A stretch of 46,933 nt of DNA from a candidate division FCPU426 bacterium (GTDB taxonomy: Bacteria > Oederibacteriota > Muellerivitia > Muellerivitales > Muellerivitaceae), in contig JASHNQ010000016.1 in the NCBI GenBank assembly GCA_030041545.1, forward strand, positions 1 through 46,933. Reading direction: 5' to 3'. This document shows, piece by piece, positions 19,425 to 46,933 of the stretch. Below the pieces are notes generated by a model that worked only from the letters and a program-made list of their open reading frames with translations, made no database searches and was not told the origin of the DNA. The first letter of the stretch is position 1. Every line of letters begins with the position of its first letter. A program made the position numbers and the translations under genes.

Positions 19425-19501
19425 GGCGGGGTAGCTCAGTTGGTTAGAGCGACGGTCTCATAATCCGTAGGTCGAGAGTTCGAATCTCTCCCCCGCTACC
19501 A
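19425..19501 (+). tRNA. tRNA-Met, elongator type (anticodon CAU), CCA encoded
   Basis: GGCGGGG pairs with CCCCGCT with a G-U at the end. The D arm GCTC...GAGC is normal. The anticodon loop CTCATAA carries CAT, and the T arm GAGAG-TTCGAAT-CTCTC is perfect. The innermost anticodon-stem pair is T-T, so the stem has four good pairs. CAU could also mark tRNA-Ile2 after lysidine modification, but the body looks like elongator Met. It sits at the boundary where accessory genes begin, a common integration site. Confidence 0.93.
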
Positions 19502-19797: not shown

Positions 19798-21645
19798 ATG
19801 AGGCATAAGGGACTCTTCAAGGCGATTGAGGAACACACCCCGCCGATTTTGGCCGGATTCGGGGTTTATTCGGCCCTTAAATGCACTTTGGAGGCAGTGG
19901 GGGTCCTTCGCCCTTCCCTGACCCCTTTTGACACGATTTCAGTCCTTCTGGTGGGTTTCCTGTATCTGTTTGAAAAGCACGTCCCCATGAACCACCTTTT
20001 GGCCCTGGCCCCGGCGGCCATCGCCCTTTCCTTCTGCCACGACTTTTTCGGGGTATTCCTGGGAACAGAAGGCTTTACAGGGGATGTGGTTATGGGAATT
20101 TCCATCCTGATTGGTTTTTGCGTCTATTTCATTCATTTCATCATCAAATCCCCAATGGAGTACCAAGGGGAGTCCCCGGTCCAGGAAGGCGGGAAATACT
20201 CCCTCTACCTGGACGAGGCGAACAAGTTCTTCATTCCCGCCGAACTCCTTAAATACCATACTGAAGTCATCGGTTCCTCCGGCATGGGAAAAACCAACAT
20301 CTTCCTTCACCTTATGGAACAGGCCATCAAAAACGGCCTGGGCATGTTCGTTTTCGACGCCAAATCCAACTACAACCGGCATATACCCTATTACACCTCC
20401 AAATATGGACGAATTAGGGATTTCAAGTATTTCGACCTGGCCGACGTGAAGCGCAGCCAAACCTATAACCCGGACTTCAAGGACAAGCCCGACGAGGTCT
20501 TTAACGGCCTGATGAAGTCCATCTTCTACGGCCCGGTGACCAATGAATTCTTCCGGGATCAGGCCAGCGACGTGTTATCGAACCTCACCAACCTGCTTTT
20601 CCTGGAGTTCAAGCACGTCACCCGCATGGACTACCAAAACCTCATCTCGAACGAAATCACCACTTTCCGTTCCATCAAGCATTTGAGCGAAAAGCACAAG
20701 GACACGGTTTCCGGGAAATACTTCCTGGAAAAGTGGGTCAAGATGGCCCCCAAGGACAGGGAAATGAACCTGTCGGGCCTCACCAGCAAATTGGCCCGGT
20801 TCACCAACCGGGAATGGTCGCCGCTCATCAACACCCTCAATCCCGACATCAGGATGAGGGACGTGGTGGAGAAACAACAGGTTTTCCTTTTCGGCACCTC
20901 CTCCCTGGTGAACCAGGAGGACTCCAAACCGGTCATCATTTCGGCCCTGATCGACCTAGCCGGGGTTATCGGCCAGCGGTTGATCAGCAAGCCCGATAAG
21001 CCCTTTTTCGTGTTCCTGGACGAGTTTTATACCGCTGCCTATCCCGGCCTGAACGACCTTATTTCCCTTGGCCGCGAGGCCAATGTCTGTTTTTTCCTGG
21101 CCCACCACAGCCTGGGCCAGTTGGGGGCCGTCAGTCAGGAATTCAAGGACGACATCCTGACCAATACCAACCACAAGATCGTCCTGAACATTACCGAGAA
21201 GGAAACGGTTGATTTTTTCGCGGCCATCTTCGGCACAAAGATCACCAAAAAGGACGTTTATTCCTACGACACCCGTGTGTCGCAGCCACGGGGAAGGACG
21301 GAAAAACAGGATGAGGAATTTATCATCCATCCGAATTATTTGAGGGGGATGAAGCGCGGGGAAGCGGTTTGCCGGATCGTTTACGTCGGGGGACCGAAGG
21401 TTTTCAAGATGAAACTAAAAGAGGTCAAACCGCCACCGTCGCAGTTCGATTATGTGGGCTGCGTGCCCATCCGCGACAATCATAAGAAACCAATCGAGTT
21501 TAACCGATTCGAAATTTCCGATACGCCCCAAGAGACCAAGGCGCCCGGACAATCCAAGGAATCAAAGAATCCCAAAAAAGAAACACCCGTGGTTTCCGAA
21601 CCACTTGAAACCCAATTGACCATGCACAATCCGTCGGGAAAATAA
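19798..21645 (+). CDS. VirD4/TraD-type conjugative coupling ATPase
   Basis: The 615-residue protein has about four transmembrane helices in the first 120 residues. A RecA-like motor follows, with Walker A GSSGMGKTN near residue 158 and Walker B FFVFLDEF near 403, then a TraG/TraD C-terminal segment with FFLAHHSLGQLG. Coupling proteins sit at the inner membrane and feed relaxase-bound DNA to a type IV secretion channel. The last 60 residues are charged, Pro-rich and probably unstructured. No other clear VirB/Tra component is seen here, so the element may be mobilizable rather than self-transmissible, or the rest may lie outside the window. Confidence 0.85.
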   Translation: MRHKGLFKAIEEHTPPILAGFGVYSALKCTLEAVGVLRPSLTPFDTISVLLVGFLYLFEKHVPMNHLLALAPAAIALSFCHDFFGVFLGTEGFTGDVVMGISILIGFCVYFIHFIIKSPMEYQGESPVQEGGKYSLYLDEANKFFIPAELLKYHTEVIGSSGMGKTNIFLHLMEQAIKNGLGMFVFDAKSNYNRHIPYYTSKYGRIRDFKYFDLADVKRSQTYNPDFKDKPDEVFNGLMKSIFYGPVTNEFFRDQASDVLSNLTNLLFLEFKHVTRMDYQNLISNEITTFRSIKHLSEKHKDTVSGKYFLEKWVKMAPKDREMNLSGLTSKLARFTNREWSPLINTLNPDIRMRDVVEKQQVFLFGTSSLVNQEDSKPVIISALIDLAGVIGQRLISKPDKPFFVFLDEFYTAAYPGLNDLISLGREANVCFFLAHHSLGQLGAVSQEFKDDILTNTNHKIVLNITEKETVDFFAAIFGTKITKKDVYSYDTRVSQPRGRTEKQDEEFIIHPNYLRGMKRGEAVCRIVYVGGPKVFKMKLKEVKPPPSQFDYVGCVPIRDNHKKPIEFNRFEISDTPQETKAPGQSKESKNPKKETPVVSEPLETQLTMHNPSGK

Positions 21646-21664: not shown

Positions 21665-22471
21665 GTGAGAATGGAAATCGGCGAGGAAGAGACCGGGCAT
21701 TTGGCCTGGATCCACTCGAACAAATTCACCACATCCGAGATTTTCCACAGGAAGTTCGTCCATCCCAAGACCTACCGCATGGCTTGCCATATTCTCAGGA
21801 ACATTTACCTGGAACGGGGCCTGTTGGACGTGACCAAGGCGGAATCCAGCACTTTCCAGGATTCCATGTATTTTCTCACCACCAAGGCCCTCCAGTGTCT
21901 CGATGCCCAGGGCAGGATATTGGTCCGAAACACCAAATTCCCGGTTCGGGTGAATCCCCACGAGAGGGATCACGACCTGAAAGTCCAATTCATCCGCGTC
22001 GCTTTCGAGGCCAATCCCGGCCTGGGGAGGGTGTTTTGGGTCTCGGACTTCGAGATGCGTTCCGGCATCACCCCGGCTGTGAAAAAGGCCTTCCTGGGCG
22101 GGGAATTGGACAAGGCGGAATGGCGTTCCAGTTGGGAAGGCAACCAAGAAAGGAGCCGCAGGACGCCGGATGGCTATTTCGAGGCGGATTTGGACGGGAA
22201 AAGGTACGGCTTCACCTTCGAGTTTGAGAACGTACAGAACCCCGAAGCCAAAATTGAAAAAATGCTGGGTTATTTGGAGGAATCCTTCCCGAAGGCCTTG
22301 AGGTTGGTAGTTTCGGAGAACCCCAAAAACGCGGCCAGGATGATCCGTCTCCTCCGCGCCAGGATTGGTGAGCAGGATAGGCACCGCTGGTTTGTGTCGG
22401 ATTACGACAAGGCGGTCGCGTTATCGTTCAAGAAGATGTGGCACCAGATAACTTATCCCGTTGGAGAATGA
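21665..22471 (+). CDS. Replication-relaxation-like protein
   Basis: A 268-residue protein that starts at GTG 21665 after AAGGAGAG. Its N-terminal 100 residues look like a winged helix (WIHSNKFTTSEIFHRKF, YLERGLLDVTKA, YFLTTKALQCL). The second half is an alpha/beta domain with the segment TPDGYFEADLDGKRYGFTFE, followed by KIEKMLGYLEESF and LRLVVSENPKNAARM. This fits the replication-relaxation family (PF13814), often found next to TraD-like genes on plasmids. The PDxxF...FE pattern also recalls a PD-(D/E)xK-like core. I infer a DNA-binding role in element transfer or replication. Confidence 0.6.
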   Translation: MRMEIGEEETGHLAWIHSNKFTTSEIFHRKFVHPKTYRMACHILRNIYLERGLLDVTKAESSTFQDSMYFLTTKALQCLDAQGRILVRNTKFPVRVNPHERDHDLKVQFIRVAFEANPGLGRVFWVSDFEMRSGITPAVKKAFLGGELDKAEWRSSWEGNQERSRRTPDGYFEADLDGKRYGFTFEFENVQNPEAKIEKMLGYLEESFPKALRLVVSENPKNAARMIRLLRARIGEQDRHRWFVSDYDKAVALSFKKMWHQITYPVGE

Positions 22472-28480: not shown

Positions 28481-29593
28481 ATGGATTTCAAATTTAAAAA
28501 TGGATTCTCAACCCGAAACCGAATAATCATTTCGAGTCTGCTTGCGGCCTGCTTTTTGCTGTACGGATGTAGTGGAACAAATAGCCCCCTCCCACCCACC
28601 ATAAACCCCGAAAACGGGGGAACCCAATACCAGGATGTTTCATTTACCGCGAACAATCTTTGTGTTCTTGTAAACGAATTTGTTTTGACAACGGTACAAA
28701 GTTATCTAGTGAACTACCCGTTGACCAGTAGTAATGACATCGACACTCAAGACACCTTTTCTTACACATTTTCTTGTACGGATCCTTACGCACAACTGCC
28801 CAACCAACTTCAATATATAGCCTTTCCGAATACAGGTATTGGATTCACCATTAACTCCATCGTTGGACACTCTCCTTCCGTAACAATAACCGTAAGCGCC
28901 CAAATGGTTGGAGGTAATACAACACTTGGGCCGAGTGCGGCACCCATCTATGACTGGTATTACGGACCCCAAGTAACCATTAAGAACAATTCGGGCTCGA
29001 CCACAACAGGGGGTGGTTCACCAGCCTGGTTGATTAGTACCCAAGATTCTGCAGCTCCAAATGGTAAGTTAGTGGATGACTATGTTTGCGCCACACCTAC
29101 CCCCTCGAATGGAAATATCTATTACGCAACCCTCCCCAACCCAATCACCAATCCCAGTGGATCTCAGCAATACCAGCAAAATTGTGGTTTAAGCCTTAAG
29201 GTTTTCAGCAATCAAAATGGCGGCGTTTTTCAAGGCATTTTTACTTCAGCTTATCCGATTACTTGCGCTTTGGTGGGTATCGGGCCCTTTGTTGGGGGGG
29301 ATGATGAAAACCTGGCTTGCCAGTATCCGGGCGGCTGGCTGGGCACTGCGTGTGAAAATTATTGGAACCAGGATGCTGCTAAGGGAGGCAACTGGGGAGA
29401 AGGCGTATTGGAAACAAGTGGGAATCTATGTTCCTCTGAAATTCCTGAGACTATTAACAATGTCACGGTATATCCAAACGCCACCATTGGGCTCTCAAAC
29501 AACGCAGTAAATACTTTAAATCTCGTCGATATTGGCAACAACAGTAACTTCAACGGTGATGTCGGTTATGTCACTTGGCGGTTCAACCAATGA
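28481..29593 (+). CDS. Lipoprotein of unknown function
   Basis: A 370-residue protein with a lipoprotein signal: a basic N-terminus, a hydrophobic stretch and the lipobox LLYGC, with the Cys near residue 30. The mature part is Ser/Thr/Asn/Gly-rich with many predicted strands and several Cys (for example [15 protein letters not shown]). It is probably an outer-membrane surface protein. No domain is recognised. AGGGAAGC precedes the ATG. It overlaps the start of the giant surface protein by four bases (ATGA), so the two are probably made together. Confidence 0.7.
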
Positions 29594-32500
29594 GAAAGCT
29601 ACTTCTCCCCGCCATCCTGATGCTGATGTCCTTCAGCCCCTGCTTTGCCCAGTTGACCCTTTTGGATTCGGTTAATAATGCCACCTGGCAAAACATTTAT
29701 AATCAGCCGAATTCGCAGATGCTTTACGGCCTCCCCGGTGCCATTTGCGCTGCAGTCCAAAACGCCGACCCGGCACCCTCCCAATATTCAACCGTCCCCA
29801 CGGTTTTGGCCTTAGACGCTTTTTCCAACGCCATCATTTATCGGTTTTGGGACGTGAACGCCCAGGCTTACGGATACCGGAGATACCAGGACGGTTTTAA
29901 CGCCCCTCGGGGGATCATCTCTTTCAGCAACGGGAATGTTTTCGTGGCGGATACGAGCAACAACCGGCTGATCGAATTCAACATGAACTCGACTTCCTCT
30001 TCCGATGGCCTGGCCCTCTCCGCCTTCACGACCTTTGGAAGCCAAGGAAACGGCCTAGGGCAATTTAACATGCCTTTTGAGATCAATACGGACGGCAACG
30101 GCAACCTCTATGTGGCCGACACTTTCAACAACCGCATCCAAGTTTACAACCAGAATTTCAACCCCGTTAATAATTTTCCAGACCCGAGGGCGGAGGAGGG
30201 AGGGCCTTCCAGCGTTAATCTAATCGGCAGCCAAGTTGGCAACGGTCCAGGCCAGTTTATGGCACCCCAAGGGGTTGCCGTGAACCTATCCACGGGGGAT
30301 ATCTACGTGGCCGACACCGGGAACGGCAGGATCCAGCATTTTACCAGCGCCGGGACTTACGTGAACGAGTACGACTTTAATTCCTCAACACCTTTCCCCG
30401 GGAGCGGCCCAAACCCGGTTATGCCTACCTACCTGGATGTGGACGCCCAGGGTCGGGTTTACGTGGTAGACCAGGTCAACAGCGAAATCCTGGTTTTTTA
30501 CGGCGACTTGACGCCGGATTTCGCCTCAACCGGCGACCCTTCCGCCCCCTTCAACCATCTCCAAGGCGTGGCGGTCGAGAAATCCCAGGATTCCTCCGGT
30601 AACTTTTACACCAACGGGGATATTTACGTAACCGACCTGAACCGGGTGTCCACCTTCGCCATTGATTTCGCCATCAATAACCTCAGCATTCCGGTCACGA
30701 CCTATACCAACCCGAATATCGGGTGCGCCCTGCCCGTCACCATTTCCTATTCCCTGACCGAGGCGGCCACCGTCACCGTCCAGGTGATCAGCGATTCGGT
30801 CAACGCGACGGTCGAGGATACGGTGGTCTCCAACGTCACGCAGCCATTGGGTCCCAATCAGGTCGTTTGGGACGGGACGGTGGCAGGGCCCAACGGCAAC
30901 GTGGCGGCACCACCGGGCCAGTACGTCATCGCCGTTTACGGGACGGATTCTGCCGGGGAAGTAGCCTATAACGCGGATGTCATCGTGGATGTGGCCGACA
31001 CCACGCCGCCCATCAGCACCATCAGCTTTACGGGCAACCAGTACCTCAACACCGGCACCAACCCGGCCGAGCTGTTCGTCCAACCCGGCGTCACCGGCTT
31101 CAACATTACGGCCACGGACACCCAATCGGGGGTGAGCCAGACCTATTTTGGAATCAATACCACAACGGTCGCCCCCGGCAATTCGGGTCTCATCCCCTCC
31201 GCCTGGACCAATGGCCTCTACAACATCTACTTCCAAAGCATCGACAACGTGTGCAACCTGGAGAACCTCAACGACCAGCCCCTGTATGTGGACATGTCCC
31301 CGCCCGTCATCGAGGTCGTTGGGAACAATCCGGCGGGGCCGGTGACCTTACCCGCGGCGGCTACGGACTACGCCACTGAAAGCGGAATCGTGACGGCCGT
31401 GGCCATCGACACGGCGGTGTATCCGTGTGGGGTGAGCCTGCTGGAGTACTCCGTCAACGGCGGGCCCTACCAAAATTATTCCGACAACGCCTTCCAGAAC
31501 GCCATCGTGAATTACGCCACTTACCAAATAACTTTCGAGAGCGTGAGCAACATGGGCGTCACATCCACCCGCCAGATCGCCATCACCCACCTGCCCCAGA
31601 TCAATACCATCAACGCCACCCAGCAGCCCGTTTACTTTTATGGAAACAATTACGAAGACTCCTACAGTTCCCTTGTCACCTACGGCCCCAATAACAACGC
31701 CAGTTACGCTTTTAACGTCGGTCCGTCCTTCAATTATCAAAGTTCCACCATCACCATCCACGGTTCAGCGCTGGATTGCAATCCACCCTTGCCGGTTATC
31801 TCCGTGCCATCCGACGCCGTCAACCTGGGGACCTTCACGGTTTCCGGCAATGAAACCCTGGCAGGCGGTAATTATGTGGCCACCAGCATCACCATCAATC
31901 CCGGGGCTACCCTGTCAACTTCTGCCGGCCAGGTGCGCATTTGGTATACCTCCACGTTCAGCATGAACGGGACCACCGCGCCCTACGGCGGGCATCCGGA
32001 CAACCTTTGGATTCTTTCGCCCACCACCGTGCAAAATGGCACAACGGGTACCTTCTCCAGTTCCTGTACCTTTGTGGGCAAGTACTATTCTCCGGAGGAG
32101 AACGTCGTGTTCAACGGCACCCTTTTCGGGGCGGTGGTGGGGAACGGGGTGGTTATCGGTTCCAATGGTACCCTCCATTACGACAGCTGGGACACGGGCA
32201 ACCTGTGCTCCGAAGGACCGGACCCCTCGGTCACCGGCCCCATCTCCGGGATCGCCGCCGACCCGTCGGACAACGCCTACCTGGCCATTTACAATACCGG
32301 CAACGGCTATGGCGCGGTTGAAAAGATTCATTCCCCCAACGGCATCTACCAGGTCCCAACCCCGACCGGTGGATTCACCACGGACGGACCCACGGGCCTA
32401 GCCTACGACTTGGTCCATAATTACCTCTATGTCTGCGATACCAAGGCCGGCGTCATGCGTCAATTGAATCCCGCGACCATGAGCTACGTGAATTCCTTCT

Positions 32501-35500
32501 CCCTGGGTAACAAAAACCTGGTTTCCGTCGCGGTGGACGGCAGCGGCAACTTCTATACCTACGACAATATCCTGGGCCTGATCCAGAAATACTCCTCCAC
32601 CGGTAGCGGGCCACAGGCCAGCTGGAGCGTGGTGTCCAGCGCGGGCCCCAACGGCATGATCGCCTGCGGCGACCAATATGTTTACTTCCTCGACAACGTG
32701 GCGGACACGATCCAGCAGTTCGACCTGTCCGGTACTGCCGGCCCGGTTTGGTCCACCAACATCGGGGGATTCAACACCCCCACCGGCTTCTCGGCGGATG
32801 CCACCGGCAAGTGCTACGTCCTGGGCCAGTCAGGGGGGGCCGGCGTGATCGAGGAATTCACCTCCGGTGGTACCCTTGCCCGCGTGGCCCCGCTTTCGGG
32901 AATCCAATCAACCGGGCTTTTGGGCTTGAACTACCCAGGCGAGGCTTATTTGATGGGGAACAACGAACTCCAAAAATTCGGGTCTTGCGCCCCCTATAAC
33001 GTATGTTCCCTTCCGTCGACACCGACGCCTCTGCCACCCCATACGGCCACCTTCACGCCCACGAACACCCCGACCCCAACGGCTTCCTCCACACCGACTG
33101 GTTCGATCACATCCACCCCCACCGGGACCTTCACCTCCTCCGCCACTAATAGCCCGACCCTCACCGCCACCCTGACCGCCTCCTTGACTGCCACGCTGAC
33201 ACCTACCCTGACCGCCACCTTGACACCGACCAATACGACAACCCTTACCATGACAATGACCCCCACGAAAACCCCCACCTCTTCCCTCACCTACACCAAC
33301 ACCTTCACCCCCTCGAATACTTGGACGCCTAGTAACACGGCCACGATCACCCTGACCAAGACCCTCACCAACACGCCCACTTCGTCCGCCACCTATACCA
33401 ACACCTTTACCCCCTCGAATACTTGGACGCCTAGTAACACGGCTACGATTACCTTGACTAAGACTTCCACCAGTACGCCCACGGCCAGCTTTACTATCAC
33501 CCCCACCCGCACGCCCACCTCGACCCCGGGCAGTCCCACGCCCACATTTACGAAAGGAAGCCCCACGGCCACTCCAACCAAGACGCCCACTTACACACCT
33601 ACCCCCAGTTTTACCCACACCGATACCTGGACCGCCACCAACACCCCCACTATCACCAATACACCCACGGTAACTGACACCAAGACGCCCACTTTCACAC
33701 CTACCTCTAGTTTCACCCACACCGACACCTGGACCGCCACCAACACACCCACTATCACCAATACACCCACGCTCACAGCCACCAAGACCTCCACGAGTAC
33801 GGCGACCTCGACTTGGACCATCAGCTATACGCCCACGCTGACTACCACCAAGACGCCCACGCCCACTGCCACCAGCAGCGCCACCTCCACCTTCACCAAG
33901 ACCATTTCTTCCACGCCAACCCTCACGTTCACTTCCACTGCCACCAGTACGCCTACCAACAGCTCTACCCTGACTTCAACGGGAACTGCAACTTCCACTA
34001 CTACCCTGAGCGCCACTGCGACCGCCACCAGCACCGCCACAATCACGCCGACCTCCACTTCCACTTATACACCGACCCCCACCAGCACCCCCACAATCAC
34101 CTACACACCCACAAACACCGACACCATCACGCCCACCAGTTCCCCCACCCTGACCGCCACCAACAGCATCAGCTCCACCCCGACCTCCACGGCCACCATC
34201 ACGCCGACCTTCACCATCACTTACACGCCGACTCTCACCTGCACCTCCACAATCACCTATACGCCCACGCCCTTCCCAACGGAGGGATGCTATTCGGTCG
34301 GCAACTTCACTAATGGGTCGCTTCAAAACGTCTTCAGCGGCACTTGGACGGCCTACGGCTGGGGCGACGGGACGCTGTTCAACTCCACGCCCACCACAGG
34401 CGCCAATGGGCCGGGCGGGGCTGGAACTATCTCCGAAACGGGCACGAACCTAAGCACGGATTTAACCACGGGTTTCGGCCTCCAATGCCCCCTGAACCCC
34501 GATCCTACCCTCACCTCCAACATCAGCGGGTCCTTTGAAGGCCTTTCCTTCTACGTGGAAGCCAACCAGCCGGCCACCATGAGGGTGGAAATCCACTCAA
34601 ACGTCTCCACCGGCAACAATGACTATGGTTACACCTTCACTGCGGGCACGGCCTGGCAGCAGGAAACGGTCATCCTGCCCCTCTTCACGCAAAACCCCGG
34701 ATATGGAACCGCCGTTCCTATCCTGACCATCCTCCAGAACGCCCTATGCTTCAATTGGAAGACATACCTGAGTGCCAACACGAACCTGACCTTCTCCCTG
34801 AGCGACATTTGCTACCTTACCAACAACCCACCCAACACCGTGACACCCACCAGTACGCCTACCAACACGCCCACCAATACTCCGACTCTGACTCCGACGG
34901 CGTCCGCCACGCCTACCTGTTCCATGGGCTGGACGCCCGTGGCCACCATGCCCGTGGGGGCCTATAACGTAGCCATCGCCTCCATCGGCACCACTATCTA
35001 TGTGGGGGGCGGCATGGGGGGCTCCAACGGCATCACCCCCCTGGCCAATTTCCAGGCCTACATCCCCTCTGCCAACACTTGGTCCACCCTGACCTCGCTT
35101 CCAACGGCCAGCCAGCAGCCGGGTGGGGCCGCAGTGGGCAGCGACTTTTATGTCATCAGTGGTTTTAACACCACCTCGGACTACCTGCCCAATGTCCAGG
35201 TTTACAACACCTCCACCAATGCCTGGTCCTCTGAAGCTTCCATCCCCACCCCCGTGGCGTTGCCAGGCGTGGGCGTAATAAGCAGTTCCATTTATGTCGT
35301 GGGCGGTCTTAACAGCACTATTTCCACCAATAACGGGTACCTGAATTCCTTGCAAATCTATAATACCAGCAGCAACACTTGGAGCCAGGGTAAGGCTATT
35401 CCCACACCCGGCTACGGCCAAGCGGTGGGGGTGGTGAACGGGATCCTTTACGCGATCGGCGGAAACGACGACGGCACCCTGCTGACCTCGGTGGAAGCCT

Positions 35501-36192
35501 TCAACCCCTCTACCGACGAATGGACCACGGAGACTTCGGTGCCCGCTACCCTCCAGAGCCCTAGTGCAGTGGTCCTCAATAACCTCATCTATGTCTTCGC
35601 GGGCGGCTCCAGCACCACCCCTAACGATGTTTATTCCTACGATCCCGCCACCAACGCATGGTCCTCCTACGGCGCCATGCCTACGACCTTGGGCGCATTC
35701 GGGGCCGCCGTGGTGGGCGACGATATTTACGCTATTGGGGGAGCCAATACGTCCAATGTGGTTTTCACCACCAATGAGCGGGGTTCCTTCGGCTGCTCGG
35801 GCGGCGGAGTCCCGGATGTTGTTAAATCATCCCGGACGGATGGTTCACCCACCAACACGCCCACCTTTGCCGACACCCTGACCCCCACTCCCGGCAGCGG
35901 CTTGGTGCAATCCGCGCTGGCCGCCCCAAATATCTCCATCAATGGGCTTCCGGTGGAGTTCATTGTGAATTTGAACCAGCCGGCGGAGGTCACGGTCAAT
36001 CTTTTCAGCGTTGTAGGGGAGAAGATATTCACCGAAGAATTGGAGGGGGTCCAAGGGCTCAACAAGCTGGCCTGGAATTTACAAAATAATAACCAACAGA
36101 ACGTGGCCAGCGGCCTTTACATCTATGAAATTCAGGCCACCGGCTGCGGAAAGACCGAATTCCGGATCGGAAAAGTCGCTGTTATCCACTGA
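29590..36192 (+). CDS. Giant modular surface protein (NHL, Ig-like, Thr-Pro stalk, kelch, FlgD-like C-terminus)
   Basis: The ATG at 29590 overlaps the previous stop and gives 2,200 residues, starting with a signal peptide (ends near CFAQ). Domains in order: NHL-like beta-propeller repeats (about 100-360, e.g. [18 protein letters not shown]), a FlgD-like Ig domain (about 370-470) and beta-rich segments. A second NHL-like set follows (about 875-1130), then a Thr-Pro low-complexity stalk (about 1142-1562) and a lectin-like beta domain (about 1564-1750). A short Thr-Pro linker, six kelch-like repeats (about 1777-2060) and a FlgD/type-IX-like C-terminal domain (about 2105-2200, with GLYIYEI) end the protein. 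Likely a secreted adhesin or scaffold. Confidence 0.85.
33015..34275 (+). repeat. Thr-Pro low-complexity region with 102-bp tandem duplications
   Basis: About 420 codons are dominated by ACC/ACG/ACT and CCC/CCG, coding Thr-Pro-rich repeats of variable phase. Two exact-length tandem duplications of 102 bases (34 codons) stand out. The first is at 33292 and 33394 (units starting [11 protein letters not shown]). The second is at 33607 and 33709 (units starting [13 protein letters not shown]). The equal unit length suggests unequal crossing-over or slippage in steps of a structural period. Long open frames on the other strand here are composition artefacts. Confidence 0.9.
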
Positions 36193-37622: not shown

Positions 37623-38238
37623 ATCCCGTTTATCACCGCGAGGTCTTGGAGAAGGTCCTGGAATTGAAGCTGCGGTCATCATTTTTTCACGCAACCATCC
37701 ACCCTTGCAAAAACAAATAAAATTTTTAGAACCAAGCTTAGTTTGGTTTAATTTTATGGAACTAAGATTATTTTCCTTCGTAGGGTGGGGTGATGGCGCG
37801 ACCAAGGCCCATGGAGAATTCACCGTTAAGCCTCAAATTTCCTGGCTTGGCATTTCAGGGAGGCCCAACCAGCAAACTCTTTCACCCTCCCGCCTTTTTC
37901 TGTAAAATCAAACCATCACATTGAGATATTCCAACTCGCAAATCGAGCCGGTTAGTGTTCCACGGGTTTACCCGTGGGTGAATGGCCACCGTGCCGAAGG
38001 CACGGCAAGCGAATTTTGCTTGAATTTTGATTTTAGTACCACGGGCTTGCCCGTGGGTATCCACTTACCTAAGACCCAAAGCGCAATTCCAACAGGCCAA
38101 GTTAATTGAATCCATTGGTGATGACAATTCCATTTACGGTTTTTCTTTATTTTCCCAAAATGGCATTTGGGTTCATTGCCAAGCATTGGATTCGGTTTGC
38201 TTTGATTTTTTAAAGAAACAGGGATTTGGATACGAAAT
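37623..38238. other. 616-bp non-coding gap before the helix-turn-helix gene
   Basis: No supported gene. It holds a terminator-like hairpin (AACCAA-GCTTAGT-TTGGTT at 37730-37748), then the palindrome cluster at 37960-38056, then an AT-rich stretch with CCAAA-ATGGCA-TTTGG at 38156-38171, which could carry the promoter of the next gene. Confidence 0.5.
37960..38056. repeat. REP-like palindrome cluster (four hairpins)
   Basis: CCACGGG-TTTA-CCCGTGG (37960-37977) and CCACGGG-CTTG-CCCGTGG (38039-38056) are perfect 7-bp-stem hairpins. They flank CCGTGCC-GAA-GGCACGG (37989-38005) and CAAGC-GAATTTT-GCTTG (38006-38022). A third copy of the first type lies at 46783. Identical stems with different loops look like a repeated extragenic palindrome family arranged as a pair with two internal hairpins. 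Confidence 0.85.
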
Positions 38239-40374: not shown

Positions 40375-40991
40375 TCAGGAGAACTCTTCCTCTTTGCGCT
40401 CCCAGGCGGACTCGGGATCGGCCAGGTCGAGGTTGACCTGTTTCAGGTCGAATTTCTCGGGGTCATAGGGCTTGCCCAGCCATTCCAAGAACCTTTCCCT
40501 TTCCGGGTGCTTGGGTTTTTCATGGCCTCCACCAGTTCCTCGTAGCCGGGGATGGAACCGCAGTCCTCGGGAGGGCAGGCCCGGGCTCCGTCCAGGCAGG
40601 AGGCGCGGGGTTTTCCTGGTTGGCGGGGAAGGATGGCTTCCAGGGTAACTTCATGGTTCCAGGCGTCGCCGAAGTCGTAGAGGTAGTCCATCCGGTCGCC
40701 GGGATTAAAAAGGACCGTGGATAAGGAAATCCTATCGGGGTCAAGCGTGGGGTGGGTGGCGTCCCCGGACAAGTCGTTTTCCGGGTCGGGCGGCTGGTAG
40801 TGGATGCCGCCTTTGGTGAACTCGAACAGGTGGTAGTCCAGCCAGCCCATGGAAAGTTGCAGGATGTCATGGAGATCCTGGAGGGTGGCCCAGGAGGGGA
40901 CCAGGAGACGCCTCCAAATGGGCGGCTCAATTCCCCTCAAGGTGACCATGAGCTGGTAGATAAACTTGGGTTTCCGGGAAGCCATGGGCAC
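40375..40991 (-). pseudogene. pRiA4b ORF-3-like gene with one-base frameshift
   Basis: The upstream frame (minus strand from 40991) encodes residues typical of the plasmid pRiA4b ORF-3 family: YQLMVTLRGIEPPIWRRLLV, YLYDFGDAWNHEV and the signature ACPPEDCGSIPGYEELVEAM. It stops early at 40443. In the next frame the expected ending continues intact (KHPERERFLEWLGKPYDPEKF, then LDLADPESAWERKEEEFS) to a stop at 40375. One base is missing near the A-run after ATG (about 40520 on this strand). Total length would be about 205 residues. Either a recent pseudogene or a homopolymer sequencing error. Confidence 0.85.
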
Positions 40992-41084: not shown

Positions 41085-41113
41085 ACACTAAGAAGCCGAT
41101 GGCTTCTTAGTGT
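41085..41113. repeat. Perfect 13-bp hairpin
   Basis: ACACTAAGAAGCC and GGCTTCTTAGTGT pair perfectly around GAT. GGGTTTTCCCC follows, with no T-tract long enough for a classic terminator. Confidence 0.8.
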
Positions 41114-41204
41114 GGGTTTTCCCCCTGGGCCAAGCCGCCCGGAAAGATCGGGCGTCCCGGCCACACCCCTTTCCCCTGGGGACCGGCTGTCCCCAAGCCC
41201 CTGC

Positions 41205-41228
41205 CCAAAAGGGAACTGACCCTTTTGG
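41205..41228. repeat. Perfect 9-bp hairpin
   Basis: CCAAAAGGG and CCCTTTTGG pair perfectly around AACTGA. Confidence 0.75.
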
Positions 41229-41549
41229 ATTTCCCGAAACCGGTCTTGAAGTGAGTGACGGCCCGCTGTCAGCCTCCCATCCCTTTGCCTTTGGGGACCC
41301 CGCCAAGCCGAAAGTCCCCTCCCCGGCTTCTCCGCAGCCAAAGCAAGTTATCCCTCCGGGGGGTGGAAGTTTGGAGCGGAAAGCCGGGTCGGGGATTTCG
41401 GATTGGCCCTCCCACAAAGGCGGCTCCCCGCCTGGGCCCCTGCCAAAAGCGGCCCTGGCAGGAAGCCGGTAAAGGGATGGGAGGTTTGAGTCCTCAGTAA
41501 GCGCCTTTACCACCGACAAATTTCGTCCTAGACATAAAAAAACGGACTC

Positions 41550-41599
41550 GGTTTGCCGGTGGGAAAAGCGCCTTCGGGTAGCGGGGCTTCCCACAAACC
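41550..41599. repeat. Bulged two-part hairpin
   Basis: GGTTT (41550) pairs with AAACC (41595), then an asymmetric bulge on the 5' side, then GTGGGAA (41559) pairs with TTCCCAC (41588). A stem interrupted on one side only recurs in the next structure. Confidence 0.65.
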
Positions 41600-41745
41600 T
41601 TTCACGTGGATCTTGGTTGTCGTTCCTTCCAAAGCGGTTCTTAAAGCCCAGCAAAACAGACATGCGTTTCCAATTCTAGAGGTCTTTGGACGATGGTCAG
41701 TTTTTGGTGTTCGTCCCGAGGCGCAAGACAGTTTTTTATCCACAC

Positions 41746-41809
41746 GGCCGCCCTTGCAAGGCAACTTTTGCGCCAGCAAAAGACGCTGGCACAAAAGTTA
41801 AGGGCGGCC
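41746..41809. repeat. Three-part nested hairpin, 64 bp
   Basis: Outer stem GGCCGCCCTT/AAGGGCGGCC (10 bp), a 7-base bulge on the 5' side only, middle stem AACTTTTG/CAAAAGTT (8 bp) and inner stem GCCAGC/GCTGGC (6 bp) around AAAAGAC. Total 24 paired positions. A highly ordered structure, candidate for a functional RNA or recombination site. Confidence 0.85.
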
Positions 41810-41875
41810 TCGCTCCTTTCCCTTCCCGTTGGTTCCAGGTTACGTCCCCGCACGAACCCCCAAAACTCCGGTTTT

Positions 41876-41920
41876 GCCTTCCACTCCCCCCTCAGGTTTG
41901 TGAGGGGGGAGGTGGAAGGC
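41876..41920. repeat. 19-bp hairpin with one bulged base
   Basis: GCCTTCCAC then TCCCCCCTCA pair with TGAGGGGGGA then GTGGAAGGC around GGTTTG, with one extra G at 41911. It ends 46 bases before the first gene of the array. A further TTTCGC-AAA-GCGAAA hairpin follows. Confidence 0.85.
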
Positions 41921-41966
41921 GGTTTCGCAAAGCGAAAGCGAAAAGAAAAACAAGGAGGTGGTGGGG

Positions 41967-42104
41967 ATGGGCGAGGCAAAAAAACAGGAAAAGAAGCCGG
42001 AGGGGGCGGAGGGGCCGGACCCGGAAGTCACGGGTTTCCAGGTGACCGACGAGGAGATGGAGAAGGCCCTTCGGATGGTCTTGGAGGGACGGCTTTCGAA
42101 TTAA
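41967..42104 (+). CDS. Small acidic 45-residue protein
   Basis: The ATG at 41967 is preceded by AAGGAGGT seven bases upstream. The 45 residues begin with a Lys/Glu/Pro-rich tail (MGEAKKQEKKPEGAEGP) and end with FQVTDEEMEKALRMVLEGRL, a likely helix. The strong ribosome site, coding-like codon use and tandem position support a real gene. Family unknown. Confidence 0.65.
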   Translation: MGEAKKQEKKPEGAEGPDPEVTGFQVTDEEMEKALRMVLEGRLSN

Positions 42105-42116
42105 GGGGAGGGAGTC

Positions 42117-42350
42117 ATGGCGCATCCATCTTTTGAGGTCGGGAAGTTTAAGTTTTGGGACCGGTACGAGGTCCACTTCGGGCGGGACGGGGAGGGGTTC
42201 TTTTTCTACGAGATCGAGGACCTGCGAAACCTCGTCCTGGTGGACGTGAAGGACCACCTGACCGAGGGGGAGGTCTTAAAGGCCTTGGGGTGCGCCTTGG
42301 GCCCTTCGGAGTTTACGCGGTTCCAACAAGCCGTCCACTTACTCGCATAA
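42117..42350 (+). CDS. Small protein of unknown function (77 aa)
   Basis: It starts at ATG 42117 with GGGGAGGGA just upstream, 12 bases after the previous stop. The protein has an alternating strand pattern (KFKFWDRYEVHFGRDGEGFF, then EDLRNLVLVDVKDHL) and a C-terminal helix (SEFTRFQQAVHLLA). It looks like a compact alpha/beta domain. No known family is recognised. Its context is a plasmid/ICE-like array. Confidence 0.65.
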   Translation: MAHPSFEVGKFKFWDRYEVHFGRDGEGFFFYEIEDLRNLVLVDVKDHLTEGEVLKALGCALGPSEFTRFQQAVHLLA

Positions 42351-42368
42351 AGCCAAGGAGGCAAAAAC

Positions 42369-42614
42369 ATGGGCCAGAAGAAACCGATTTGGAGGATGAA
42401 AGGACCGGGATGCGAAATCGCGGTGATGGACCGGAAACCGTATGGGCCGACTCATGAGTACCAGGTGGTCCTGGCCCGTGGCGAATGGCCGAACGACCAG
42501 GACCTCGTGACTGCCCTGGACAACGGGGGTTTCCGGGACCTAACCCAGTGTCACTTTGGCGGGTATGTCCTCAAGAAGGACAACACCGCCACCGTCCGCG
42601 TTTATGTGGACTGA
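42369..42614 (+). CDS. Small protein of unknown function (81 aa)
   Basis: It starts at ATG 42369 after AAGGAGG. The sequence is basic at the N-terminus (MGQKKPIWRMKG), with strands EIAVMDRK and YQVVLARGEW, a helix DQDLVTALDNG and strands GGYVLKKDNTATVRVYVD. A small alpha/beta protein; no family recognised. The stop is 25 bases before the ArdC-like gene. Confidence 0.65.
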   Translation: MGQKKPIWRMKGPGCEIAVMDRKPYGPTHEYQVVLARGEWPNDQDLVTALDNGGFRDLTQCHFGGYVLKKDNTATVRVYVD

Positions 42615-42639
42615 CCCACCAGAACGGGAGGAAAAGACC

Positions 42640-43563
42640 ATGAGGAACATCGGCGAGGAAATCACCAACCGGATTTTGGAGGACATGGAAAAGGGCGTTA
42701 TGCCCTGGCAGGAGCCCTGGAAGGTGGGGAAGGAGCTTCCCCTGCCACTGAACGCGGCAACGAAACACTCCTACAGGGGCATTAACATCGTCGTCCTTTG
42801 GAACGAGGCGGCACGGCGGGGGTATTCCTCGCTGGTCTTCCTCACCTTCAACCAGGCAAAGGAACTTGGCGGGACCGTGCGCAAGGGTGAGCACGGGACG
42901 CAGGTTATCTTTTACAAGCCCATCCCCAAGGACCGGAGCCTTCGCCGGGAGATAACCGGCGAGGGCGAGATCGAGGAATTGCCCGAAGAGGAGGTCATCC
43001 GGGTCCTCCGGTATTACACGGTCTTCAACCTGGACCAAACCCAGGGGCTCGACTGCCTGAAACCGGAACTGGAACCGGTGAAGTCCTTCCAGCCCCATGA
43101 GGAGGCCGAAAGGATTCTCGCCCAGTCGGGGGTGAGGATCATCCATTCCCCTTTCGGTAAGGCCCTCTACAACCCCAACCAGGACCACATTGTCCTGCCC
43201 CGCAAGGAGGACTTCGACAGCCCCCAGACCTATTACGAAAACGCCTTCCATGAACTCATCCACGCCAGCGGCTCACCGGGACGGTTGAACCGGGAAAGGG
43301 GGAAGCGTTTCGGGGACAAGGCCTATGCCTTCGAGGAACTGGTGGCCGAGTTGGGGGCGGCCTTCCTTTGCGCGGGGGTGGGGATTCCCTACACCACCCG
43401 CCACGCCGAGTACCTGGCCGATTGGGTCCGGCTTTTGAGGGACGACAAGCGGGCCATTTTTTCGGCGGCGGCCAAGGCCCAGGCCGCCGTGGACTTTATC
43501 CTGAAAATCCAATTGGAGAAACCCGGCGACGCATTGGCCGCGCCGGGAGGGGTGGCCCAATGA
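42640..43563 (+). CDS. ArdC-like antirestriction protein with zincin metallopeptidase domain
   Basis: The ATG at 42640 has GGGAGGA seven bases upstream and gives 307 residues; upstream frames are artefacts. The N-terminal half is the ArdC ssDNA-binding domain: MPWQEPWKVG, the conserved YRGINIVVLW and GGTVRKGEHGTQVIFYKP. The C-terminal half is a zincin-like peptidase with FHELIHASG near residue 203 (HExxH) and the later Glu in FEELVAELGAAFL. ArdC proteins protect incoming plasmid or ICE DNA from restriction. It overlaps the RadC-like gene by four bases (ATGA). Confidence 0.92.
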   Translation: MRNIGEEITNRILEDMEKGVMPWQEPWKVGKELPLPLNAATKHSYRGINIVVLWNEAARRGYSSLVFLTFNQAKELGGTVRKGEHGTQVIFYKPIPKDRSLRREITGEGEIEELPEEEVIRVLRYYTVFNLDQTQGLDCLKPELEPVKSFQPHEEAERILAQSGVRIIHSPFGKALYNPNQDHIVLPRKEDFDSPQTYYENAFHELIHASGSPGRLNRERGKRFGDKAYAFEELVAELGAAFLCAGVGIPYTTRHAEYLADWVRLLRDDKRAIFSAAAKAQAAVDFILKIQLEKPGDALAAPGGVAQ

Positions 43564-44036
43564 AACGGCAACTGATATTCCGCTTCAACCTGGACCACTT
43601 CCCGGCCCCCACCGTCCCGCCGGTTTCATGGGCCGAGGCCAGGGCCGCCTACCACCGGGGACCGGTGGTGGCCGACCCGGAGCAGGCGGCGGACTACTTC
43701 CGAAAGTTCATCGGCGGGAAATCCAACGAATCCTTCCTTTGCATGTATGTGGACCACCAGCAGCACGTCCTGGACGTGGTGCTGGAAGGGGAGGGCACCG
43801 TGGATTCCTCGGCGGTTTTCCCAAGGGAACTCCTCAAGCGGGCGCTTTCACTTTCGGCGACCGGAATCATCCTGGCCCACAACCATCCGGCGGGCGGGTT
43901 GGAACCTTCGGAAGCCGACAAGGCCCTGACCAAGCAGGTCATGACGGCGGCCAGGGCCTTGGGAATCACGGTTCAGGACCACTTGATCGTCGCGCACGAG
44001 GGATTTTTCTCTTTCCGCCGCGCGCGGCTTATTTGA
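43560..44036 (+). CDS. RadC/JAB-domain protein
   Basis: The ATG at 43560 overlaps the ArdC-like stop and gives 158 residues, so it is shorter than full RadC and lacks the helix-hairpin-helix part. The JAMM metalloprotease motif is LAHNHPAGGLEPSEAD near residue 105, with Asp and two His as zinc ligands. The core MYVDHQQHVLDVVLEGEGTV is typical of the RadC family. Short RadC proteins are common on mobile elements; their substrate is not established. Coupling to the ArdC-like gene suggests a joint role in DNA entry or maintenance. Confidence 0.92.
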   Translation: MKRQLIFRFNLDHFPAPTVPPVSWAEARAAYHRGPVVADPEQAADYFRKFIGGKSNESFLCMYVDHQQHVLDVVLEGEGTVDSSAVFPRELLKRALSLSATGIILAHNHPAGGLEPSEADKALTKQVMTAARALGITVQDHLIVAHEGFFSFRRARLI

Positions 44037-44052
44037 TGAAAGGAGGGAAAGC

Positions 44053-44523
44053 ATGTTCAAGGAAATCGAATTGGACGGGAAAGGGTGGGCGAGGGGCCGC
44101 AACGGCTACTTCGTCCCCCGAAGGGCGGAGTTGTTTAGGGACGTGAGGGGGCAGGTCAACCTGGAAGTCTGGTCCAAGAGGCGGGGCAATGTCGAACCCG
44201 TTTTCTTGAGGGTTTCCAGGGATGAGGCCCTGGAACTGGCAAGGGCGGTCATCGCCCTGGCCGGAGGAGGGGAGCCGAAAACCCCCAGGGTCGTGGTGGT
44301 CGTTGAGGGCGGGAACGTGCAGGAAATACTCTCGGACCAGCCGGTGGACGTGGTCAAGGTGGACTACGACGTGGAGGGGATGTTTGAGGATGACTTGCGG
44401 CTGGTGGCCCAGGTGGGGGAAGGAGGGAAGAAAACCTACGCCTTGGCCTGGGTGCGGCATTGGGGGGAAGCCTTGGTTTCCCCTGGGGAGGCGAAGCGGT
44501 TTTTCAGGACCGCCTTGGATTGA
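44053..44523 (+). CDS. Protein of unknown function (156 aa)
   Basis: It starts at ATG 44053 with AAAGGAGGGA upstream. The first part is basic with strands (WARGRNGYFVPRRAELF, VNLEVWSKRRGNVEPVFL) and a helix EALELARAVIALAGG. The second part has RVVVVVEGGNVQEILSD, followed by acidic strands and a C-terminal helix. The GGNVQEILSD phrase is often seen in mobile-element hypothetical proteins. No function assigned. Confidence 0.65.
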   Translation: MFKEIELDGKGWARGRNGYFVPRRAELFRDVRGQVNLEVWSKRRGNVEPVFLRVSRDEALELARAVIALAGGGEPKTPRVVVVVEGGNVQEILSDQPVDVVKVDYDVEGMFEDDLRLVAQVGEGGKKTYALAWVRHWGEALVSPGEAKRFFRTALD

Positions 44524-44535
44524 AAGGAGGAACCG

Positions 44536-44883
44536 ATGGAAGCAAGGGAAAAATCGGTGGAGCCGGAACAACGCATGGAAAGAAGGTTGAAACCCCTGCG
44601 GTTGAAGGAGGCCGACGTTTATGACGTGCTGGCCTACCTCATCCGCAGGCACGGGATCGGCCCAGTGGTGGAGCAGTTGAAGAACTTCTTCTGGGACAAG
44701 ACCGACGAGGCTTTCGGCGGGGTATGCCAGGACCGGAGCGATTACAGCTTTACCGGATTGAATTGGGCGAGGGCCTGGGACGTTTGCGGGGCTTTGCTGG
44801 AATGCCTGGAAGGGAAAATCAGAGAGTTTGAGATGAGTGAAAAGGGACTGAAAAGGAGGAAGGGAAATGAACGCAGCCGTTGA
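44536..44883 (+). CDS. Protein of unknown function (115 aa)
   Basis: It starts at ATG 44536 after GAAAGGAGGAA. The sequence is helical and charged: RLKEADVYDVLAYLIRRHG, GPVVEQLKNFFW, then WARAWDVCGALLECLEGKI. Its Trp-rich centre suggests a compact helical bundle. Its end overlaps the next gene by 17 bases. No family recognised. Confidence 0.62.
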   Translation: MEAREKSVEPEQRMERRLKPLRLKEADVYDVLAYLIRRHGIGPVVEQLKNFFWDKTDEAFGGVCQDRSDYSFTGLNWARAWDVCGALLECLEGKIREFEMSEKGLKRRKGNERSR

Positions 44884-45124
44884 AATTCCGGGAATCAAGA
44901 AGATCAAGGTGGAATCCGTCCTTGTCCGGGGATTCTACCAGCGGACCATCCTCAAAGTTTATTTCAAGGACGGGACGGCCCTCACTTTTTCAGGCGACCT
45001 TCCCCGGAAGGAGGCGGTTTTCAACGCCTATTACCAGAAGGGCAGGGACGCCGGATTGACCGTAGAAGAAGCGGCCAGCTTGGCGGGTAAGGGCCGAGTG
45101 GAGCCTTTGAGGGAAAACCATTGA
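44867..45124 (+). CDS. Small protein of unknown function (85 aa)
   Basis: It starts at ATG 44867 after AAAAGGAGGAAGGG, which lies inside the end of the previous gene. Strands KIKVESVLVRGFYQ and TILKVYFKDGTALTF are followed by a helix AVFNAYYQKGRDAG and a helix TVEEAASLAGKG. This looks like a small alpha/beta domain. No family recognised. 77 bases separate it from the next gene; they hold a second AAAGGAGG. Confidence 0.62.
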   Translation: MNAAVEIPGIKKIKVESVLVRGFYQRTILKVYFKDGTALTFSGDLPRKEAVFNAYYQKGRDAGLTVEEAASLAGKGRVEPLRENH

Positions 45125-45201
45125 GGCAGGGGACGGAAGGCTTGCCGCTTTGGGAGACGGAAACCACGGCAAGCCTTCCTCCGAGGGAAAGGAGGAAGAC
45201 C

Positions 45202-45390
45202 ATGAACTCTTTGACGGTGGAGGAACAAAGGGAACTGGCCGCAGCCCAATTGGAAGCCCTCAAGAACATTCCCGACCAGTTGGCGAAGATCAACGAAGGT
45301 TTGGGGATGGTCAACACCAACCTGGAAAGGTTGGCCGTATGGTTTGAGCAATGGGCGCCCAGGCGCGAGACGGTAAGGAAGGGGAGGTGA
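45202..45390 (+). CDS. Small coiled-coil protein (62 aa)
   Basis: The ATG at 45202 follows AAAGGAGGAAGACC. The 62 residues are helical with a heptad-like pattern (EEQRELAAAQLEALKNIP, NEGLGMVNTNLERLAVWF) and a basic tail. A dimerising or partner-binding protein is likely. A longer frame from 45121 has a poor start. The stop overlaps a GTG of the next small frame. Confidence 0.6.
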   Translation: MNSLTVEEQRELAAAQLEALKNIPDQLAKINEGLGMVNTNLERLAVWFEQWAPRRETVRKGR

Positions 45391-45577
45391 TCGACGTGAA
45401 ATTCAAGATCAGGACAACCAACCGGTTCACCCGCGAGTGCAAGGGCACTACATGGATTTTAAAAACCAGGCGGAAGCCGGGGACCAAATAGCCGAATGGA
45501 ACAAGAATAACCCGACTTTCATTTTCGAATTGGTAAAGGAAGTCAGGGAAAGGAATAAGGAGGGAGACCGTGTTTAA
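45387..45577 (+). CDS. Small gene, probably frameshifted
   Basis: A GTG at 45387 (after GGGGAGG) opens VIDVKFKIRTTNRFTRECKG, but the frame stops at 45491. A second frame from ATG 45452 gives 41 residues (MDFKNQAEAGDQIAEWNKNN, then PTFIFELVKEVRERN) with good coding character and ends at 45577. Joining them by one missing base near 45445 would give one about 60-residue protein. It may be a decayed gene, a sequencing error, or two overlapping genes. Confidence 0.4.
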
Positions 45578-45763
45578 ACCCGGCCAATCCCGGAAGGAAA
45601 AACCTTTAAAGATAGGTTTCGACTTTTCTATTTCATTCAGGCCCGCTGTTCCTGTTGCGTCGTGGTGATGTGGCAGAGGAACGATGAACTCTGGAAAAGC
45701 CGTTGCCCCGATTGCGACCCGGAACTGTACCAGGACCCAGGAGTAACAACTCAGGAGCCCTAA
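45570..45763 (+). CDS. Small zinc-ribbon-like gene, probably frameshifted
   Basis: A GTG at 45570 with AAGGAGGGA upstream starts VFKPGQSRKEK and stops at 45668-45670. A different frame carries a Cys-rich stretch, RCSCCVVVMWQRNDELW, then RCPDCDPELYQDPG, to a stop at 45763. It resembles a zinc ribbon but has no start codon of its own. A one-base change near 45580 would fuse the two. It lies directly after another gene with the same kind of defect. Confidence 0.35.
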
Positions 45764-45777
45764 AGGAAATCAACCGA

Positions 45778-45816
45778 CACCTTTGCCGGAGTGCCGTCGT
45801 GACCAAAGGTGGCGGC
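45778..45816. repeat. Copy A of a structured intergenic repeat
   Basis: CACCTTTG pairs with CAAAGGTG (8 bp), enclosing GTGCCGTCGTGAC. Copy B at 46432 shares the same GTGCC(T/G)TCGTGACC core and the AAGGTGG(A/C)GGCC 3' arm. It lies upstream of the 45849 gene. Confidence 0.7.
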
Positions 45817-45848
45817 CCAGCTGGGAGCCGATGAAAGGAGAAACAACA

Positions 45849-46094
45849 ATGGAGATTTATAAAGTCGTCTTTGATGAGCCCGATTACCAGGGAACCATGC
45901 AAGTCTTTGTCAGCCTGGAATGCGCGAAGAAATACGCTTTTAGTTACGAGGGAAAGGCTGGGTTTGAGTTTGTGCAAGCCGAGATAACGGGCGGAGGGTA
46001 TTTGCGACGCCCTTCCACCGGTTTTCCCGGTAAGTTCGACTGCATCCATATCCTGGAAGCGTGGCGAGAGGGAAAGGGGGACTTCCGTGTTTAA
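45849..46094 (+). CDS. Small protein of unknown function (81 aa)
   Basis: The ATG at 45849 follows AAAGGAG. The 81 residues form strands IYKVVFDEPDYQGTMQVFV, a helix ECAKKYAFSYEG and strands FEFVQAEITGGGYLRR, then a helix LEAWREGKG. A small alpha/beta fold; family not recognised. Its end overlaps the start of the DUF2958 gene by eight bases, suggesting coupling. Confidence 0.65.
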   Translation: MEIYKVVFDEPDYQGTMQVFVSLECAKKYAFSYEGKAGFEFVQAEITGGGYLRRPSTGFPGKFDCIHILEAWREGKGDFRV

Positions 46095-46416
46095 ACCCAT
46101 CGAGGAACTGTTAGACAGGCCGGAAGCCTTGGCTCATATGCCGGCCCTTTACGACACCGAAAAAGTGGACCTTGAAAACCATTTTTTCCTAATGAGGTTC
46201 TATCATCCTTTGTCGAGGCAATCATGGTATGCCGTGGAATACGATCCGACTGAACGGATATTTTTCGGCTGGACGGACGGGGAATTCCAGGAATGGAGTT
46301 ATTTCAGCCTGCTAGAAATGGCTTTCACGGAGGTTATGGGGGTACCGGTCATGTGGGACGTGGATTTTAAGCCCATCCGGTTTGGGGACTCGAAGGCCCA
46401 GGAGGTGAGGGACTGA
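46087..46416 (+). CDS. DUF2958-like protein
   Basis: A 109-residue protein that starts at GTG 46087 inside the end of the previous gene. The pattern MPALYDTEKVDLENHFFLMRF, then WYAVEYDPTERIFFGWTDG, then EWSYFSLLEMA and PVMWDVDFKPIRF, matches the DUF2958 family (PF11171). That family is found on plasmids and integrative elements, often near ArdC and RadC proteins. Function unknown. The sequence is complete and of normal length. Confidence 0.85.
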   Translation: MFKPIEELLDRPEALAHMPALYDTEKVDLENHFFLMRFYHPLSRQSWYAVEYDPTERIFFGWTDGEFQEWSYFSLLEMAFTEVMGVPVMWDVDFKPIRFGDSKAQEVRD

Positions 46417-46541: not shown

Positions 46542-46933
46542 TGGATGGCCATAAAGGTTCTTCAAAATTGGAATTTTTGAAACCACTTTTATTCAGGCTT
46601 TTTCTTCGACAACTCCCAGATGAAAATATGTCCATTAACATAACTTTAAGCAAAGCCTTAAACCAGTCACGATTTAGGCAAAATACAAATTTTACAAAAA
46701 ACTTATTGACCAGAAAATGAGTTAACTCGTATAAGTGCTCAAGAATTGTTGTTCACTTTTTTTAATATCGCCGCTTTGAATTCCACGGGTTTACCCGTGG
46801 GTATCTACTATTGAGAAATCGATAATGGATAAAAAATGAATAAACCAAAACCGAACAACAATCAAAACTTTGTACTAACCTTTTTCTTCCTGAAATCAAT
46901 AGTGGATGAGGCGATCTTTTTATGAGGATTTTT
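46542..46933. other. AT-rich end of window; holds third REP-like palindrome
   Basis: No supported gene. It contains CCACGGG-TTTA-CCCGTGG at 46783-46800, identical over more than 20 bases to the copy at 37958. The last bases (ATG at 46922) may begin a gene beyond the window, but only a few codons are visible. Confidence 0.6.

Follow-up and report, generated by a model that had tools for sequence, protein, structure and literature searches.

A conserved, structured leader in front of an ArdC operon and other small-gene operons in candidate division FCPU426 bacteria

The right end of a 46,933-bp contig from a candidate division FCPU426 bacterium (JASHNQ010000016.1) holds an operon of small genes that includes ardC, and raises the question of what this operon does and how its expression is controlled. 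The window analyzed here is the entire contig (contig C50 of genome G000, written G000:C50), which stops 517 bp past the operon; G003 and G006 denote two related genomes of the same FCPU426 family. A preliminary description of the locus reported about 13 small, closely packed genes on one strand, and the open reading frames bore this out, with 13 genes on the plus strand from the ATG at 41967 to the stop codon at 46416, in the order g1, g2, g3, ardC, radC (g5), g6, g7, g8, g9, g10, a zinc-ribbon-like gene, g14 and a gene for a DUF2958 protein. That description left out a conserved leader of about 880 nt located just upstream of the operon, as well as two frameshifts within the operon. The gene content alone is of a familiar kind, and interest centers on the leader, which is conserved, repeated and covarying. 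We lean, a little beyond an even chance, towards the view that the locus is an establishment operon of an integrated, TraD-bearing FCPU426 mobile element, with the leader as a shared cis-regulator.

The leader comprises 882 nt without a conserved gene, and it aligns over its full length with the DNA ahead of related ArdC operons. It is 66-70% identical to the copies on G003:C61, G003:C34 and G006:C19, compared to 40% for the 1,000 bp farther upstream, which is the level of unrelated sequence. Because the synonymous sites of the neighboring genes differ at about 60%, this identity indicated that the leader is under strong constraint. Just before the leader, on the opposite strand, lies a gene for a pRiA4b ORF-3-like protein (40443-40991; PF07929, 3e-53).

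The conserved sequence is also highly structured. The consensus fold of four leader copies, calculated with alifold, had an energy of -577.7 kcal/mol compared to -348.9 kcal/mol (standard deviation 9.2) in 60 column shuffles, and it contained 45 covarying pairs compared to a maximum of 30 in the shuffles. Single copies folded with z scores of -7 to -10 relative to shuffled sequences, on both strands and with both RNA and DNA parameters, and the minus strand folded at least as well as the plus strand. In the helix at 41506-41566, 9 of 20 pairs carried changes in both partners, and no pair was changed in one partner alone, values that 0 of 500 shuffles reached. The inverted repeat I7, which supplies the arms of the long-range stem, is 94% complementary, and its arms are also present in the consensus fold. 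No sigma-70-like promoter was identified on the plus strand of the leader, although this consensus may not fit FCPU426.

To locate further copies, a covariance model, R1, was built on the middle part of the leader, and weak matches (E 5e-4 to 0.06) were left out of the counts. R1 found the leader on G000:C50, on G006:C19, and on contigs C34, C61, C47 and C76 of G003. Leader copies precede ArdC operons in all three genomes (on C34 and C61 in G003), and a second subtype in G003 precedes a RadC operon, a DUF932 gene and a g6-like operon. G003:C76 alone holds two copies, before different operons: a full-length version ahead of a small gene that has radC behind it, and a 3' half, 81% identical, that ends right ahead of the DUF932 gene. 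The version on G003:C47 lies ahead of a relative of the C76 small gene, and a partial version on G003:C72 lies ahead of an operon with two g6-like genes. By eye alone, the genes that follow the C47 and C76 leaders looked SpoVG-like, a label that was discarded because Pfam gave no match.

All eight copies that retain a 3' end finish in a hairpin 41-57 nt ahead of a start codon that is served by a strong ribosome site. These terminal hairpins have stems of about 16-26 bp and a loop usually ending in TTGTG; the two subtypes differ throughout their stem sequences but keep the complementarity. On G003:C81, the leader is reduced to a 5' remnant, its first 150 nt, which is fused to a truncated virB4 gene. 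The idea that the leader drives a VirB4 operon there was rejected, since only this remnant is present and the VirB4 lacks its N-terminus (the full copy in G006 has 835 aa), and the arrangement was counted as a rearrangement. Across 84,980 genomes, the leader pattern was found at the G003 and G006 loci only, and no copies were found in IMG/VR or in plasmids and phages.

Structured sequences in front of ardC have been described before. The Bacillus plasmid pLS20 carries the EGeRS1 sequences, 420-750 bp long and each with multiple inverted repeats, just upstream of ardC and of four further operons (PMC8708921). In the one that was tested, a constitutive promoter is lacking and readthrough from upstream is blocked; how it is activated is not known, and an origin of expression from a single-stranded DNA (ssDNA) promoter was judged unlikely by the authors (PMC8708921). 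The FCPU426 leader is likewise placed immediately 5' of the ribosome sites of ardC operons and other small-gene operons, contains multiple inverted repeats, and has a very stable predicted fold; the fold excess of the pLS20 copy, run for comparison, was comparable. It also occurs as several copies of differing lengths before different operons in one element, as seen with the two copies on G003:C76. In contrast, it is longer (about 880 nt and more), its loci look chromosomal, and its host is uncultured. By analogy, the leader probably works like EGeRS1 without belonging to that sequence family. Expression of the operon early after transfer, as the preliminary description proposed, is indirectly supported, because its shared structured leader resembles the one before ardC on pLS20.

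In the mechanism that we propose, the leader would be the shared cis-regulatory sequence of the establishment regulon of the element. In a settled cell, its hairpins would silence the operon by stopping readthrough from upstream, and on arrival of the element the operon would be expressed briefly, probably by way of hairpins that form in the leader RNA or in the single strand as it comes in. The incoming element DNA would be protected and processed in the new host by ArdC and, presumably, also by RadC and the small proteins. A bolder version, in which a family of structured leaders of about 0.9 kb, unrelated in sequence to EGeRS1 and Frpo, folds in the incoming ssDNA and controls several establishment operons of FCPU426 mobile elements while the orphan proteins act as new anti-defense factors, is unlikely. 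It is understood for only a few plasmids how the expression of establishment genes is confined to the time when DNA enters a cell. An independent leader with covarying pairs, in a different phylum, suggests that the solution recurs. The leader copies provide comparative data on whether such sequences act as DNA or as RNA, and the leader could be used as a marker for establishment genes, including those for unknown small proteins, in uncultured bacteria.

Whether the leader acts as DNA or as RNA bears on the first alternative, in which it is a long 5' untranslated region that works by attenuation, antitermination or control of translation and has no role as ssDNA. This is possible, if on the unlikely side. 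Its direct position before the first gene, the strong RNA fold of the plus strand and the hairpin that stands close ahead of the start codon in eight copies are all consistent with an RNA; however, the minus strand folds no less well, and the helix at 41506-41566 covaries without one-sided intermediates. Wobble counts gave no preference for the plus strand (GU 6 versus AC 12), and the strand call from them was inconclusive. The terminal hairpin is not followed by a U tract, and Rfam yielded sub-threshold chance matches only and no bacterial family, such that the leader was rejected as a known RNA family. An ssDNA promoter of the Frpo type, in which the strand being transferred would fold and be transcribed immediately, is quite unlikely. 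The Frpo/ssi promoters of F-like plasmids are a precedent for anti-restriction genes in leading regions, where regulatory regions of 50-350 bp were searched (PMC11541004). Like these, the leader places its hairpins ahead of genes of anti-restriction type on a transfer element, and both of its strands fold strongly as DNA, but it is much longer than the regions searched and has no recognizable -10/-35 on the plus strand (with the caveat that the promoter type of FCPU426 may differ), and the pLS20 authors doubted such a promoter for EGeRS1. It is very unlikely that the leader represents a non-autonomous mobile element, dispersed as a hairpin repeat, which came to lie before these genes by chance. 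G003 does carry several copies and subtypes, including the C81 remnant joined to virB4, yet the distance to a start codon is kept within 41-57 nt wherever the 3' end is present, the genes behind the leaders are of the same plasmid or integrative and conjugative element (ICE) kind, and the stems are maintained through compensatory changes.

The conservation of the operon itself bears on a further alternative, that it is an ordinary decaying remnant of an integrated element with no active role. Close relatives of ArdC, 55-58% identical, were found in 2 of 59 related genomes, both of the same FCPU426 family. They are flanked by g1, g2 and g8, and in G003:C34 also by g9 and g14; a third ArdC locus, G003:C61, is broken off by the contig end inside ardC. 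In contrast, g3 has no relative in the ArdC loci of the related genomes, and g7 has none among 45 genomes of the phylum; relatives of the C-terminal half of g6 occur in G003. This distribution indicated that the operon consists of a conserved core and a variable remainder. Co-conservation of the small genes with ardC, and recurrence of the array in other elements, thus held for the core genes, while g3 and g7 are private to the locus or genome of the window. The ratio of nonsynonymous to synonymous substitution rates (dN/dS) of the shared genes g2, ardC, g8, g9 and g14 was 0.09-0.35, which indicated purifying selection.

Decay without an active role is unlikely in light of this selection, the intact ArdC motif and the conservation of the leader. 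The private genes would fit a remnant, as would the frameshifts in g10 and the zinc-ribbon-like gene in the window and in g8 of G006. The two frameshifts in the window could be genuine decay or assembly errors. In g10, the reading frame switches at T TTA AAA, a sequence with the form of a -1 slippery heptamer, but an assembly error of a single base is no less likely. In the C34 operon, a C-rich open reading frame (L010 6131-6271), related by eye to the zinc-ribbon-like gene, is open.

The establishment reading presumes a mobile element around the operon. In the window, a gene for a TraD/VirD4-type coupling protein (PF10412, PF12696) is followed by a partner gene, and the encoded partner is 52% identical to the product of the gene behind TraD in G006. 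The partner resembled Replic_Relax by eye, an assignment that was rejected as it matched no Pfam family. TraD and its partner have relatives 7 kb upstream of the leader in G006 and about 5 kb upstream of that on G003:C47, and a TraD 81% identical sits 31 kb upstream of the C81 remnant. G003 has eight TraD matches and several leader copies (contigs C34, C47, C49, C61, C67, C76, C81, C82, C85, C87 and C97), and seems to carry many related elements. On G006:C19, three overlapping tyrosine recombinase genes lie between the TraD partner and the leader (L012 3617-6913), a trio that we take to resemble recombinase-in-trio elements. Directly upstream of TraD on the same contig are homologues of SspC, SspD and SspA, a phosphorothioation-type defense, together with helicase- and nuclease-like genes (L027 938-10774). 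A distant TraD element on G000:C114 encodes Vsr together with a type II methyltransferase, and its RadC is 68% identical to g5; this element and that on G000:C106 (L072, L073) have such a RadC and, by eye, tyrosine integrases, and no leader was detected on either. TraD elements related to that of the window thus carry sspA/C/D or type II restriction-modification genes, which fits mobile elements that bear defense genes together with an anti-restriction operon.

Several observations weigh against an establishment operon of such an element. TraD is 21 kb away from the leader in the window, no relaxase was accepted by PF03432 or PF13814 in G000, G003 or G006, and neither an origin of transfer (oriT) nor the element ends were found; a tRNA-Met at 19425, considered as an attachment site, has no second copy within the window. 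The genome of the window has one leader only. The guanine-plus-cytosine content of the leader (58.2%) is above that of the window (52.3%) but not above that of the operon (55-61%), and a blastn comparison of the leader with the pLS20 stretch that holds the large EGeRS1-type repeats gave no match.

The operon is tightly arranged, with start codons that mostly overlap the preceding stop or sit at most 30 nt from it; wider gaps precede g9 (77 nt) and g14 (84 nt). Strong ribosome sites set these genes apart, as previously described: the longest match to AAGGAGGTG averaged 6.3 nt at 12 operon starts compared to 2.9 nt at 14 other genes of the window and 3.1 nt at random operon positions.

ArdC, RadC, DUF2958 and DUF932 co-occur in early or accessory regions of ICEs and plasmids, and the FCPU426 loci have these families in common with them; the difference is that most of the FCPU426 small genes are lineage-specific. 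Pfam confirmed the three families that had been named in the operon. Both ArdC domains are present (PF08401, 4.8e-38; PF18818, 7.2e-44), and the protein matches the ArdC structures 6i89/6sna in the PDB over nearly its full length (E 2e-52). RadC has a RadC-type JAB domain (PF04002, 1.5e-36) and scored below the full-length equivalog cut-off (126.5 versus 180 bits). The DUF2958 protein matches PF11171 (3.8e-5, 24.4 bits versus a Pfam cut-off of 21). The link of these families to mobile DNA was upheld by ArdC relatives on 3065 plasmid records; no plasmid relatives were found for g2, g8 and g14, and none in IMG/VR for g6 and g14.

The suggestion that the unknown small proteins are anti-defense factors did not gain support. 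The products of g1, g2, g3, g6, g7, g8 and g14 had no accepted match in Pfam, PHROG or NCBIfam, and PADLOC matched none of the small proteins run (g1 was left out of that run). The lone structural lead came from g2, whose model had a predicted local distance difference test (pLDDT) score of 79, a confidence that agreed in only two of five models; its best PDB match was the anti-CRISPR AcrF1 (template modeling score 0.50, E 0.45), which is not significant, and the models disagree. A convincing PDB match was not found for the predicted fold of g8.

Table 1 Features of the leader, the operon and the presumed element, in window coordinates
Feature	Coordinates	Strand	Remarks
Structured non-coding leader	41085..41966	+	Abuts g1 and takes in its ribosome site
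5' perfect 13-bp hairpin of leader	41085..41113	+	From the fold
Branched long-range stem with inner arms	41273..41484	+	Arms 41273-41289 and 41468-41484
Covarying hairpin	41506..41566	+	Core of covariance model R1
Hairpin with invariant GCAACTTTTGCGCC	41746..41809	+	From alignment and consensus fold
Terminal hairpin, conserved loop end	41874..41922	+	45 nt ahead of g1 ATG
g1	41967..42104	+	45 aa, charged; relatives in 3 loci
g2	42117..42350	+	77 aa; relatives in 3 other loci; predicted four strands and two helices
g3	42369..42614	+	81 aa; absent from related loci
ArdC	42640..43563	+	ArdcN and zincin domain; HELIH motif present
RadC (g5)	43560..44036	+	158 aa; JAB domain only
g6	44053..44523	+	156 aa; C-terminal half has relatives among the small genes behind G003:C72 leader copy
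g7	44536..44883	+	115 aa; orphan
g8	44867..45124	+	85 aa; predicted three strands and two helices; relatives 65-71% identical
g9	45202..45390	+	62 aa; C34 relative 76%
g10	45396..45577	+	Small gene in two frames, shift near 45460
Zinc-ribbon-like gene	about 45579..45764	+	Two frames, shift near 45625
Diverged internal copy of 3' hairpin	45778..45811	+	Inside the operon
g14	45849..46094	+	81 aa; C34 relative 83% identical
DUF2958 protein	46087..46416	+	GTG start; PF11171
3'-end hairpin with conserved GCCTTCGTGACC in loop	46432..46467	+	Same place in G003:C34, diverged in G006:C19
TraD/VirD4-type coupling protein	19798..21645	+	PF10412, PF12696
TraD partner gene	21665..22471	+	52% identical to gene behind TraD in G006; no Pfam family

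At the 3' end of the operon, the hairpin listed in Table 1 carries a motif, GCCTTCGTGACC, whose exact form occurs at two operon ends only across the 45 genomes of the phylum. Elsewhere in the window, the region 29575-36192 encodes a predicted surface protein of 2205 aa with, by eye, a very long Thr-Pro repeat and Kelch-like stretches. A 33-nt repeat that bears a palindrome lies at 46770-46802 and again at 37947-37979, and it is also present on other contigs of G000 and of G002.

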